Below, one piece after another: positions 48,171-53,025 of a stretch of 64,000 bases of DNA. Position numbers and translations under genes: made by a program. This DNA is from Synechococcus sp. J7-Johnson. Its GTDB lineage: Bacteria > Cyanobacteriota > Cyanobacteriia > PCC-6307 > Cyanobiaceae. The stretch covers positions 1 to 64,000 of the forward strand of contig NZ_JAGQBU010000005.1 of NCBI RefSeq assembly GCF_024345795.1, in the 5' to 3' direction. Position 1 is the first letter of the stretch, and each line of letters begins with the position of its first letter. The notes under the pieces were generated by a model that had not been told where the DNA came from, did not search any database, and was given only the letters and a program-made list of their open reading frames with translations.

Positions 48171-48569
48171 GTGACCGGCGATCCTTCCACCATCCTGGAG
48201 GCCCCCCAGGCGCCGGTTCAGCGCCAGGGCCTGATCACCGCCCTGGTGCTGCTGGCAGCAGCCGGCTGCATCCTGCTGCTGCTGCTCATTCTTCCAGCAG
48301 CCCGCAGCGACCCGTACACCCGCCGCACTCTTGAACTCTCGGGCTCCCCTGAAACTGGTGGTCGGCTGTTTCGGATGAACTGCGCCGGCTGTCACGGCAT
48401 CGCCGCCCAGGGGCTGGTGGGTCCCAGCCTGCATGGGGTGAGCCAGCGCCGCAACGACCGCCAGCTGATCCGCCAGGTGGTGAGCGGCCGCACTCCACCG
48501 ATGCCGCGCTTCCAGCCCGAACCCCAGGCCATGGCCGACCTGCTGGCCCATCTGCACACCCTGGAGTGA
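48171..48569 (+). CDS. cytM: Cytochrome cM
   Basis: The 132-residue protein has an N-terminal membrane anchor ([20 protein letters not shown], about residues 22-41) and one c-type heme site CAGCH, with LVGPSLHGV and a Met in PPMPRF as the likely sixth ligand. Cytochrome cM is a low-abundance cyanobacterial cytochrome linked to stress and respiratory or photosynthetic electron flow. The start is GTG at 48171. The stop overlaps the trmJ-like gene (GTGA). Confidence 0.88.
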
Positions 48570-49360
48570 GTGCCGGCTCGGTGCCCGACTACCCAGAACT
48601 GGCCCTGGTGCTGGTGGAACCCGCCGGCCCCCTGAATGTGGGCAGTGTGGCCAGGCTCTGCGCCAATTTCGCGGTTCACGACCTGCGGCTGGTGGCCCCC
48701 CGCTGCGATCACCTCGGCGAGGAAGCCCGGCGCATGGCCGTTCACGCTGGAGCGTTGCTTGAAGCTGCCAAGGTCTATCCGGATCTGGCGGCAGCCATCG
48801 CCGACCGCACCCGGGTGGTCGCTGCCAACGGGCGAGTGGACTCGCAGGCGGTGCCCATCGAAGGGCCCGCCCAGGCCATCCCCTGGTTGCTGGGTCACCC
48901 GAGCCCGAGCCGGCCTGGGCCAGCGCGACGGACCAGCGCCGGGGCGCTGGTCTTCGGGCGGGAGGACCGGGGCCTGAGCACCGACGAACTGCTCCAGGCG
49001 GGCCGCATCCTGCGGATCGGCACCGACGCCGGCTACCCCTCCCTCAACCTGTCCCATGCGGTTGCCATCACCCTGCACGAACTGCGCCGCTGCCAGCTGG
49101 AAGACACTGAAAGCCGACCAGCCGGCCCGGCCCAGTCGATCGGGCCAGAACCCGCTGCTCGGGAGCTGCTCGAAGCCGCCCTCGCCGATGCCGAGGAACT
49201 GCTGCTGGAAGTGGGGTTTGTGCTCCCTCACACGGCCCATGCCCGGATGGCCAAGCTGCGGGCGCTGCTGCAGCGTGCCCAGATCAGCGCCGAGGAAGTG
49301 GCCCTGGTCCGGGGCATGGTCCGTCAGCTGCGCTGGGCCAGCCAGCGGGGAACCCCCTAA
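48566..49360 (+). CDS. TrmJ-like tRNA/rRNA methyltransferase (SPOUT)
   Basis: The 264-residue protein has the SpoU/TrmH superfamily motifs: LVEPAGPLNVGSVARLCANF near residue 16, LVFGREDRGLSTDEL and YPSLNLSHAVAITLHEL, plus a C-terminal helical part as in TrmJ. TrmJ makes 2'-O-methyl at position 32 of tRNAs. Members are often annotated more loosely as TrmH-family. It starts at a GTG overlapping the cytM stop, so translation is coupled. Confidence 0.87.
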   Translation: MSAGSVPDYPELALVLVEPAGPLNVGSVARLCANFAVHDLRLVAPRCDHLGEEARRMAVHAGALLEAAKVYPDLAAAIADRTRVVAANGRVDSQAVPIEGPAQAIPWLLGHPSPSRPGPARRTSAGALVFGREDRGLSTDELLQAGRILRIGTDAGYPSLNLSHAVAITLHELRRCQLEDTESRPAGPAQSIGPEPAARELLEAALADAEELLLEVGFVLPHTAHARMAKLRALLQRAQISAEEVALVRGMVRQLRWASQRGTP

Positions 49361-49393
49361 GGTCCTGCCATCTCCGTCGCCCCTGGCTGAATC

Positions 49394-50482
49394 GTGCGTA
49401 CGGGTCGCTCCCCCCGTTCCGGATCCCCCGGCTGGTTCCAACCCCTCGCCCTCGTCATGCGCCTGCTGGTGATGGGCCTCGGCCTCGGGGTACTCACCGG
49501 CACCGCGTTGAAACAACTGGCTCCGAAGCTGGCCCAGGGGGCGATGGAAGCCCCCAAGGCAAGCAGCGCCAGCTCACCGGTGCCCACACCCAAGGGGGGC
49601 CTGGCCCTGGGCCGCTTCGAGCCCAGGGTGGAGCTCACCAAGCTCAGCCAGAGCTGGAAGGCCCTGGCCGCCGAGCACAAGGATCTCAAGGTGGGCGGCT
49701 TCCTGCTGGTTCTCGATGACGGCCGTTTCGCCCAGCTCAATCCCGACACACCCCTGCCAGCGGCCAGCTCGATCAAGACCCCGATCCTGCTGGCGGCCCT
49801 CGACGACCTGGACGCCGGCAAGCTGCGCTGGAACGAGCCGCTGCCCCTCACAAAGGAGGTGATGGGTGGGGGAGCCGGCTGGATGGCCAGCCGGCCGCTG
49901 GGCACCCGCTTCCCCTTTTATGAGGCCGCCACCGAGATGATCCGGGTGAGCGACAACAGCGCAACCAATCTGCTGATCAAGCGGCTCGGGGGCAAGGCCG
50001 CCACCAATGCCCACTTCCAGGCCCTGGGCCTTCCCGCCACGGTTATCAACAACTGGCTGCCCGATCTCGAGGGCACCAACACCACCAGCCCCCGCGACCT
50101 GGCCCGCTCGATCGCCCTGGTTGACATCGGCGAGAAACTCAGCCCCCGGGCCCGCGACCATTTCCGCACGATCATGGCCACCTCCCGCACCAACACCCTG
50201 CTGCCCGCAGGTCTGCTCAAGGGTCTGGGGGGCACCTCCAGCGACCCCGACAGCGAGCTGATGGCCCGGGGAGTGACCGTGCTCAACAAAACCGGCGACA
50301 TCGGCATCGCCTACTCAGACGCCGGGCTGATCGAACTCCCCAACGGCAAGAGAGCCGTGGCAGGGTTCATGGTCAAAGGCCCGTTCAACGACCCCCGCTC
50401 CACCGATCTGATCCGCGCCATGGCCGCCGCCGTGAGCGAGACCCTCGTGGGTCGCAGCAACCCCTCATCCCAACCCCGCTGA
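49394..50482 (+). CDS. Class A beta-lactamase-fold serine hydrolase lacking the Glu166 general base
   Basis: The 362-residue protein has a membrane anchor or signal (about residues 16-40) and the active-site elements Ser125-X-X-Lys128 (SSIK), Ser186-Asp187-Asn188 (SDN) and Lys299-Thr300-Gly301 (KTG) in the class A order. Exactly 36 residues after the SDN serine, where Glu166 of the omega loop belongs, it reads W-Leu222-P-D-L-Glu226. Thus Glu166 is replaced by Leu, and Asn170 by Glu. It may acylate but deacylate poorly, or use Glu226. It could be a cell-wall peptidase or esterase rather than a beta-lactamase. A TAAGGT hexamer at 49359-49364 could serve it. The start (GTG at 49394) is uncertain; an ATG lies at 49457. 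Confidence 0.8.
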   Translation: MRTGRSPRSGSPGWFQPLALVMRLLVMGLGLGVLTGTALKQLAPKLAQGAMEAPKASSASSPVPTPKGGLALGRFEPRVELTKLSQSWKALAAEHKDLKVGGFLLVLDDGRFAQLNPDTPLPAASSIKTPILLAALDDLDAGKLRWNEPLPLTKEVMGGGAGWMASRPLGTRFPFYEAATEMIRVSDNSATNLLIKRLGGKAATNAHFQALGLPATVINNWLPDLEGTNTTSPRDLARSIALVDIGEKLSPRARDHFRTIMATSRTNTLLPAGLLKGLGGTSSDPDSELMARGVTVLNKTGDIGIAYSDAGLIELPNGKRAVAGFMVKGPFNDPRSTDLIRAMAAAVSETLVGRSNPSSQPR

Positions 50483-50488
50483 GCCCTG

Positions 50489-51943
50489 ATGCCTTTCCTG
50501 ACCATGGCCGCCGGGTTGCTGCTCTCGGCCGGCGCGGCCCGGACCCCAGCAGCGGCACCGGCCCCAGCAGCCCCGGCACCGGCCCCCACCACCGAGCTGA
50601 GGACCCAGCAGGTGCGTCCTCTAGGCGGCGGGCTCGACCGGGTGCCCGTCGTCAACGACAACAACCCCGAGCTGATCATCCAGCCCGGCATTCTGCTCTC
50701 CACATTCAACGGCCGCGGGACCCTCTCGGGCCAGCCGTTCTCGAGCCCCGACGCTCACCTGAACGTTCCCCTGCAAGGACGCTTCGACCTGTTCAGCCAC
50801 CACGTCTATGCCGGGCGTCCCGAAACCCTCGACTCGGTGCTCTGGCTGGGGGTGGTGGCGGCCCCAGTGAACAGCAAGCCGGTGCGGCTGCGGGTGCTGG
50901 GCGGATCCACGGCCCTCTCCCAGTCGAGTGATCCAAGCCAACCGGCGGCCCCCTTCCTGCCTCTGCCTGCGCTGATGTCCCACGACGGCAGTTCGGTGTT
51001 TGCCGGCCCCGGCTCACGTGTGGCGGCTGAACTGCTCCAGAACCGCAGAGGCGCAGGGATTCCCCAGGAATGGACCCTGGCCCCTGGCCAGCTCACCACC
51101 ATGCTGGCCCTGCCGATACCCGTGAAAGGGCTAGATCCCCTGCTCAATGGCCGCAACCTGCAACTGCGGCTGGAGAGTGACGGCCCCGTGCAGTTGGCCA
51201 CCCTGGCCGCCTTCGGTGGCGAGCAGGCGCCGGGGCCGGAAGTCTGGAGCGGCCTGCTGCGCGCCGGGCTCAGCGCCAAAGAGCATTTGCCCACGCCCAG
51301 GGGGCAGACCGGGGGCATCATCTACTCGAGGGTGAGCGGGGTGCAGACCGGCAGCCGCTGGAGTGCCCAACTCACCGATCCAGGCAGCAAGCTGCTCTCA
51401 GTTCGCAGTGCGCCGGTGTCCTGGCCTATCGCCTCGCTGGAGCGGGGCAGCCTGGGCAGCGGTCAGGTCCAGACTGCTGAGCTGAAGGCCTTCTACCCGG
51501 GAACCGCCTGGGCCGCCCACGGCAACTACGGCGTGGAGTACGACCTGATCCTCCCCCTGGTGAACGACAGCAAGGGGCCAGTGGCTCTCGATCTGGCCCT
51601 GGAATCCCCCCGCAAGACCGACAGGGCCGAAGGTGGCCTGCGCTTCAACCTCAACCCGCCGCGGGCCGTGATGTTCCGCGGCACGGTGGAGGTGAGTGGG
51701 CTCGATGGGCCGGCGGGCCGCCCCGCCGGTCGGCGCTGGTTCCATCTCGTGCAGCGCCAGGGAGAGAAGGGCCCCAGCCTTGGACGCATAAGCCTGGCCC
51801 CCGGACAGCAGCGGCAGGTGAGGGTGCGACTGATCTACCCCGCCGACGCCACGCCGCCTCAGGTGCTGAGCCTGCTGCCCGCTCCCGCGCTCCCACAGGC
51901 AGCTGTGAAACAATCCGAATCCGTGCCGGCCCCCCGTCCGTGA
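50489..51943 (+). CDS. DUF3370 family secreted protein
   Basis: The 484-residue protein has a signal peptide ([21 protein letters not shown]), an Ala/Pro linker, and the DUF3370 body: EVR-like [18 protein letters not shown] and [12 protein letters not shown], then [18 protein letters not shown]. It is beta-rich, with no catalytic motif seen. The family is found in cyanobacteria and its function is unknown; an outer-surface or periplasmic role is likely. It lies 6 bp after the beta-lactamase-fold gene, and its stop overlaps the chlI start (GTGA). Confidence 0.88.
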
Positions 51944-53025
51944 GTCAGACCCGCAAACGCAGGGCGTTTCCCTTCACCGCCATCGTCGGCCAGGAGGAGA
52001 TGAAGCTTGCCCTGCTGTTGAACGTGATCGATCCACGCATCGGTGGGGTGATGATCATGGGCGACCGGGGCACGGGCAAGTCCACCGCTATCCGCGCCCT
52101 CGCGGATCTGCTGCCGGAGATCGATGTCGTTGCCGGCGACCCCTACAACAGCTCCCCCAGCGACCCCGACCTCCAGAGCGCCGAGGTGCGCCAGCGGGCT
52201 GAGAGCGGCGAAACGCTGCCGGTAGAGCGGCGCCAGGTGCCGATGGTGGATCTGCCACTGGGCGCCACCGAAGACCGCCTCTGCGGCACGATCGACATCG
52301 AGAAAGCCCTGAGCGAAGGGGTGCGGGCCTTCGAGCCGGGCCTGCTGGCCAAGGCCAACCGGGGCCTGCTCTATGTCGATGAAGTGAACCTGCTCGACGA
52401 CCACCTGGTGGACGTGCTTCTGGATTCGGCCGCGTCCGGGTGGAACACGGTGGAGCGGGAGGGGGTGTCGGTGCGCCATCCGGCTCGCTTCGTGCTGATC
52501 GGCTCGGGCAACCCCGAGGAAGGGGAACTGCGCCCCCAGCTCCTCGATCGCTTCGGCATGAGCGTGGAGGTGCGCACGGTGCGCGATCCGGAACTGAGGG
52601 TGCAGGTGGTGGATCAGCGCACTGGCTACGACAGCGACCCTGACGGCTTCAACAGCCATCACCAGGGAGCCCAGGAGGCGCTGCAGGAGCGGGTGGTGGT
52701 GGCCCAGCAGCGGCTCCCCCAGGTGCTGATCGACCCTGATCTGCGCATCCGCATCTCGGCGGTGTGCGGCGAGCTGGACGTGGACGGACTGCGCGGCGAC
52801 ATCGTCACCAACCGGGCGGCCAGGGCCCTGGCCGCCTTCGAAGGCCGCACCGAAGTGAGCGACGACGACGTGGCCAGGGTGGTGGCCTGCTGCCTGCGCC
52901 ACAGGCTGCGCAAGGATCCGCTGGAGCAGATCGATTCCGGCGATCGCGTGATCAAGGTGTTCTGCAAGATCTTCGAGATGGCGGACACCGCCCGCGACGC
53001 CTTCCAGCTAGCTCTGGCGGCCTGA
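51940..53025 (+). CDS. chlI: Magnesium chelatase ATPase subunit I
   Basis: ChlI is the AAA+ motor that, with ChlD and ChlH, inserts Mg2+ into protoporphyrin IX, the first committed step of chlorophyll synthesis. The 361-residue protein has Walker [10 protein letters not shown] (about residues 45-53), Walker [13 protein letters not shown], sensor 1 in [21 protein letters not shown] and the C-terminal helical lid. The GTG start at 51940 overlaps the preceding stop. The length is normal. ruvC follows after four bases. Confidence 0.96.

Follow-up and report, generated by a model that had tools for sequence, protein, structure and literature searches.

A Predicted PBP-A Family DD-Peptidase with Leucine at the Glu166 Position in Synechococcus sp. 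J7-Johnson

The gene, its motifs, and its neighborhood

A 64,000-nucleotide stretch of DNA from Synechococcus sp. J7-Johnson, called the window here, carries a gene whose product is predicted from sequence to be a DD-peptidase of the PBP-A family. The nearest named relatives are Cyanobium sp. CZS48M, Synechococcus sp. CS-1329, and Synechococcus sp. RedBA-s (96%, 95%, and 96% identity, respectively), which marks the window as cyanobacterial. The gene, its features, and its two adjacent genes are as follows, with conservation counted over the 130 loci described below.

48566..49360, forward strand: gene for a TrmJ-type RNA methyltransferase, the upstream neighbor (PF00588; TIGR00050 just under its cut-off; synteny)
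49394..50482, forward strand: predicted PBP-A family DD-peptidase gene, GTG start, 362 amino acids
49457..49525, forward strand: probable membrane anchor, the hydrophobic N-terminal residues 22-44
49766..49777, forward strand: SxxK motif with the predicted nucleophile Ser125 and Lys128 (Ser61 and Lys64 of T. elongatus PBP-A), 130 of 130 loci
49871..49873, forward strand: Gly160, the equivalent of Glu96 of T. elongatus PBP-A in an alignment numbered from Ser61
49949..49957, forward strand: SDN motif, Ser186-Asp187-Asn188, 130 of 130 loci
50057..50059, forward strand: Leu222 at the class A Glu166 position (PBP-A Leu158), Leu in 130 of 130 loci
50063..50065, forward strand: Asp224, an invariant acid in the shortened omega loop (PBP-A Asp160), Asp in 130 of 130 loci
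50069..50071, forward strand: Glu226 at the "170" position (PBP-A Lys162), not conserved across the 130 loci
50288..50296, forward strand: KTG motif, Lys299-Thr300-Gly301, followed by Asp302; K in 130, T in 129, and G in 130 of 130 loci
50489..51943, forward strand: gene for a DUF3370 protein, the downstream neighbor (PF11850, 462 bits; synteny)

The SxxK motif of the window protein reads S125-S-I-K128 and the omega loop W221-L222-P-D-L-E226-G. The distance from Ser186 to Leu222 is 36 residues, equal to the Ser130-Glu166 spacing of class A beta-lactamases (reference residues Ser70/Lys73/Ser130/Glu166, given for one enzyme in PMC3394801). A preliminary description of the locus had reported intact SxxK, SDN, and KTG motifs, a leucine exactly 36 residues past the SDN serine, and a glutamate four residues further; each of these is seen here, as Ser125/Lys128, Ser186, Lys299, Leu222, and Glu226. 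In the hydrophobic N-terminal stretch, G30 and G36 are invariant among 20 aligned sequences.

The gene occupies a conserved site. The DUF3370 gene starts 7 bases past the last base of the PBP-A stop codon, and the order cytochrome c, trmJ, PBP-A, DUF3370, chlI, ruvC is complete in 45 of 80 relatives. A further 17 keep this order without a DUF3370 match, PBP-A being followed by chlI (16 of the 17 have the other five genes), and the remaining 18 show parts of it, gene order being judged as far as the contigs reach. The 5' part of the DUF3370 gene holds an 18-base tandem repeat (50534-50586) in an Ala/Pro-rich stretch. A mobile origin of the region was considered: megablast of 48171-53025 against plasmids returned no match, a result that rules out close DNA only.

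The site also exists without the gene. In one genus of the host's own family, g2, with genomes of 1.6-1.7 Mb, none of eight genomes has a PBP-A match (L239-L246). In these genomes (G107, G161, G163, G169, G209, G217, G219, and G243), cytochrome c, trmJ, chlI, and ruvC keep their order, and the trmJ and chlI matches are neighbors, separated by about 150-290 bases. PBP-A is missing from its conserved site in this genus, most likely by loss. We infer that PBP-A is an ordinary peptidase, inherited vertically and subject to loss. The role of the enzyme in the cell may be redundant, since a Peptidase_S13 gene is also present in the Synechococcus sp. J7-Johnson genome; no Peptidase_S11 match was found there at E 0.001. 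The same genome holds a second PF13354 locus (L002, G000:C1:61075-61629, minus strand; 50.6 bits) whose motifs read SVVK and, judged by eye, SSN in place of SDN and KAG in place of KTG. This second locus adjoins a reading frame that, again by eye, resembles alanine racemase.

Family identity and the shortened omega loop

Family membership is established by sequence and fold; the motifs, the invariance of the leucine, and the variability of position 226 are likewise direct observations. A phmmer search of all PDB sequences places 2j7v and 2j8y (Tll2115, PBP-A) first, with E = 1e-59 and 9e-59 over residues 74-353. The next different protein is 6yrs, a reconstructed ancestral beta-lactamase, at E = 5.8e-14. 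The best natural protein after PBP-A is LRA-5 from a soil metagenome (PDB 8eo5/8eo6, E 1.7e-13), which is not a PBP-A; PMC12777564 describes it as a class A precursor with Val166, that is, a class A fold naturally without Glu166. The Pfam model PF13354 (Beta-lactamase2) matches the window protein with 169 bits (E = 1e-49), and this score together with the gene order kept, apart from the DUF3370 neighbor, in 80 relatives speaks against a chance finding. The NCBIfam class A beta-lactamase model NF033103 is not reached (90.3 bits against a cut-off of 200), and the protein lies under the NCBIfam cut-offs of all 25 families shown.

The modeled fold points the same way. An AlphaFold2 model of residues 75-362, built from a 38-row alignment of the window protein and loci from the 80-relative set, has a mean pLDDT of 94.0 and a pTM of 0.91. 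Foldseek with this model returns PBP-A chains at ranks 1-11 (TMt 0.91-0.95). VIA-align, which matched 2j7v and 2j9o, superposes the model on 2j7v with Z 40.0 and 1.5 Å over 264 residues; the highest-scoring class A beta-lactamase is a reconstructed ancestor with Z 32.5 and 2.2 Å. On this sequence and model evidence, the gene is predicted to encode PBP-A, a cyanobacterial low-molecular-weight penicillin-binding protein with a class A beta-lactamase fold.

Comparison with named systems sharpens the assignment. With T. elongatus PBP-A (Tll2115; PDB 2j7v, 2j8y, 2j9o, and 2jbf, the last carrying L158E), the window protein shares SxxK, SDN, KTGD, Leu at 166, Asp at 168, the short omega loop, the fold, and a cyanobacterial host. 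The two differ in having only about 42-45% identity, in Gly160 for Glu96 and Glu226 for Lys162, and in 16 additional residues in the window protein between about 276 and 291 in a pairwise alignment. Class A beta-lactamases (CTX-M, TEM, and reconstructed ancestors) share the fold and the SxxK/SDN/KTG core, but the window protein lacks Glu166, its omega loop is six residues shorter, and VIA-align gives Z values up to 32.5 with 18-27% identity among the rows shown. DD-carboxypeptidases of the E. coli PBP5 type (Peptidase_S11) catalyze the same class of reaction and belong to a family different from PBP-A. In the superposition of PMC3394801, Leu153 of the E. coli PBP5 type lies near the Glu166 spot.

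The omega loop is where the window protein departs most plainly from a beta-lactamase. In the phmmer alignment with 6yrs, Leu222 falls on the Glu of W-E-P-E-L-N and Glu226 on its Asn. From position 166 to the loop-end TT, the loop measures 7 residues against 13, counted by eye in one class A sequence; the phmmer alignment with T. elongatus PBP-A has no insertion or deletion in the loop. The equivalence of Glu226 to position "170" is only approximate, because it is the last aligned position before the six-residue deletion. A six-residue omega-loop deletion and no Glu166-equivalent residue are features that PMC7514474 gives for PBP-A, and PMC3394801 names Leu158 of PBP-A as the counterpart of Glu166.

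The preliminary description proposed alignment of cyanobacterial homologs at positions 222 and 226, and the outcome differs between the two. A search of the phylum with the window protein covered 244 genomes, 224 of which gave a match. Among the matches listed, 130 loci were examined, the window copy included; they were collected without any leucine-dependent pattern, and several second copies, a few tail rows, and all matches beyond those listed fall outside this set. All 130 loci have Leu at position 222, the 20 that come from other classes of the phylum among them, and L222 to N229 spans 8 residues in every locus. Position 226, by comparison, varies. The 80 relatives, used for position 226, for synteny, and for the model, were found with search patterns containing LPDLxGTN and therefore provide no independent support for the leucine. 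Since Leu occurs in all 130 loci examined, Leu222 should not be read as something this genome has lost. Thus, the earlier statement that the deacylating glutamate is absent holds, with Leu222 at the 166 position; the accompanying suggestion that a class A beta-lactamase had lost it does not, because leucine is the state of all the loci, those from other classes among them.

A further 18 loci from other classes, mostly weak matches, were considered apart from the 130. Leu with the short loop recurs in six of them (L219-L224); in nine, Met is combined with a longer loop, and insertions occur at this place in the remaining three (L226, L232, and L236). In the Met group (L225, L227-L231, and L233-L235), position 168 is Asp in all nine and position 170 is Glu or Asp in eight, within the longer loop; these homologs form a separate group in which the position-170 question might merit asking. 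PBP-A type sequences with Leu and the short loop (L193-L212 and L219-L224) thus occur in phylum classes other than that of Synechococcus sp. J7-Johnson. PBP-A is described in PMC11189452 as confined to cyanobacteria. If those other classes are non-photosynthetic, the PBP-A family is wider than photosynthetic cyanobacteria.

Position 226 and the catalytic mechanism

The biochemistry of the family is known from T. elongatus. As reported in PMC11189452, T. elongatus PBP-A is a DD-carboxypeptidase and DD-endopeptidase with strong selectivity for stem peptides containing D-iGln; penicillin G blocks it, and the S61A variant is inactive. According to the same source, introduction of Glu at the aligned omega-loop position raises beta-lactamase activity 90-fold, which still leaves it five orders of magnitude under that of a natural enzyme. 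The closest solved homolog of the window protein is also known as a penicillin G acyl-enzyme (2j8y, a Foldseek match).

By analogy, the window protein would act as a membrane-anchored periplasmic PBP-A, both the anchoring and the role in the cell being predictions. Ser125, activated by Lys128 and Ser186, would attack the D-Ala-D-Ala bond, or the D-Ala-mDAP crosslink, of a stem peptide. The resulting acyl-enzyme would be freed by water, yielding DD-carboxypeptidase and possibly DD-endopeptidase action. A penicilloyl-enzyme would be freed only slowly, owing to Leu222 at the place of Glu166 and to an omega loop six residues shorter, and penicillin would consequently inhibit the enzyme. We put the probability of this explanation as a whole, with activity carried over from the T. 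elongatus homolog, at roughly 94%. Substrate preference may differ from that of the T. elongatus enzyme, given identity of only about 42-45% and Gly160 in place of Glu96. Two options raised in the preliminary description fit this explanation: a penicillin acyl-enzyme, which the homologous structure 2j8y makes plausible here, and peptidoglycan as the substrate, which is what PMC11189452 reports for the T. elongatus enzyme and what would be expected of the window protein.

The third option raised there was a relocated base. On this view, the window protein would be a functional beta-lactamase of class A type, its general base shifted from position 166 to Glu226 at 170. Glu226 does lie on the omega loop four residues from Leu222, aligned with class A Asn170, and Glu is the commonest residue at this position: the 130 loci show E 56, Q 20, K 13, D 12, A 8, G 5, T 4, and R 3, with S, N, P, V, and Y making up the remainder. 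Glu is likewise found in 54 of 94 loci of the host's class outside its own family, and the closest named relatives (L033-L038) retain it. Acidic residues nevertheless account for only 68 of the 130 loci, with Lys or Arg in 16, and the next relatives already have D, N, Q, or K. Within the host's own family (16 loci), the count is D 7, K 4, Q 2, and E, S, and N once each; in the 80-relative set, it is D 30, E 17, K 10, N 7, Q 6, G 5, A 4, and T 1. A quick maximum-likelihood tree (131 rows, column 226 omitted) requires at least 48 state changes at this position, 22 of them between acid and other residues; these counts are minima on that tree, in which 45 of 127 inner branches are open and long branches are flagged.

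The T. elongatus enzyme itself supplies a second argument against the relocated base, as it has Lys162 at the equivalent of position 226 and is active as a DD-peptidase. A third comes from its structure. For 2j7v, Table 6 of PMC3394801 lists atoms of Leu158 and Pro159 and the main-chain nitrogen of Asp160 as the protein atoms within 3.4 Å of the Glu166 carboxylate spot, in a superposition on a class A enzyme, and residue 162 is absent from the atoms listed. The NF033103 score of 90 bits against a cut-off of 200 likewise speaks against a class A beta-lactamase. Taken together, the variability of position 226, the activity of the Lys162 enzyme, and the absence of residue 162 from the Table 6 atoms make a relocated base very unlikely; Glu226 reads as tolerated loop variation. 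Asp224 was considered as an alternative omega-loop base and set aside. It is invariant in 130 of 130 loci, yet the same table places only the main-chain nitrogen of Asp160, its counterpart, within 3.4 Å of the carboxylate spot, and Asp224 is for this reason taken as probably structural.

Two other functions are imaginable for a protein of this kind. In one, lasting acylation would itself be the function, the protein serving as a penicillin trap or beta-lactam sensor. The penicillin G acyl-enzyme of the homolog (2j8y) is compatible with such a role, but the gene sits within an old, conserved gene order, no sensor or regulator domain was found in the five proteins scanned (the window protein and four neighbors), and the T. 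elongatus homolog cleaves muropeptides (PMC11189452), all of which render this function highly improbable. In the other, the protein would hydrolyze an envelope ester or amide outside peptidoglycan, an idea prompted by the breadth of PF13354 and by the first characterization of PBP-A with surrogate thioesters (PMC11189452); there is scant probability of this, as the window protein carries the complete PBP-A signature and the only characterized family member is a DD-peptidase.

Glu96, peptidoglycan amidation, and meaning for the family

PMC11189452 ascribes the D-iGln selectivity of T. elongatus PBP-A to Glu96, on the basis of simulations. The column of this residue holds Gly in 113, Glu in 15, and His in 2 of the 130 loci. 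The window protein, with Gly160, has no Glu of the Glu96 type; the selectivity feature belongs to the T. elongatus enzyme and does not define the family.

The known amidation enzymes give a corresponding picture. Of 244 genomes, 165 match MurT (PF08353), and none of these is among the 24 sampled from the host's own family, that of Synechococcus sp. J7-Johnson included. When MurT was checked in 19 genomes at E up to 1, only the known positive (G095) matched; the host genome (G000), G089, and G179 gave nothing. A GatD query of 19 genomes, five of them MurT-positive, reached E <= 1e-120 in those five and E 0.4, with two hits, in G027 and G229, with no match in the other twelve, again including the host genome, G089, and G179. 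A full MurT query gave E <= 1.4e-192 in the same five; among the other fourteen genomes the best value was 1.5e-6, and we take those matches for ordinary Mur ligases. G089 is a T. elongatus-like genome: its PBP-A is 100% identical (rounded) to the 2j7v fragment. For T. elongatus, either another enzyme amidates the peptidoglycan, or the selectivity has another meaning, or a diverged MurT/GatD pair was missed.

Glu96 also shows no association with MurT among 110 loci of the host's class (Glu in 9 MurT-positive and 6 MurT-negative cases, other residues in 59 and 36; Fisher p = 1.0). One of four Fisher tests gave p = 0.02, for any acid in residues 158-161 with the host's own family dropped; its direction is that acid is rarer beside MurT, and it is not relied on. 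The lack of a MurT match in the 24 genomes of the host's family, combined with Gly at the place of Glu96, leads us to suggest, tentatively and at somewhat less than even odds, that PBP-A of this lineage acts on non-amidated peptidoglycan. If so, the amidation reading put forward for the T. elongatus enzyme would be local rather than general. For T. elongatus itself, given the absence of MurT and GatD matches in G089, there would then be either an isoglutamate amidase of a new kind or a selectivity that is not the physiological one.

Here, an apparent puzzle is settled. The glutamate is neither lost nor moved, as position 166 is Leu in every locus examined. The preliminary description was right to find this odd for a beta-lactamase, and the PBP-A identity explains it: the missing glutamate, the acyl-enzyme, and the peptidoglycan substrate are supported, a relocated base is very unlikely, and the protein is not a class A enzyme that lost Glu166. 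The window protein is an added member of an already known, structurally solved family, and no new mechanism is needed. Only the side observation on Glu96 and MurT/GatD has some novelty; no paper on either point was found in a literature search whose coverage of subscription journals is poor. Across the family Glu96 is uncommon, and its occurrence does not follow that of the known amidation enzymes, so that the amidation-reading role given to it can be tested directly.
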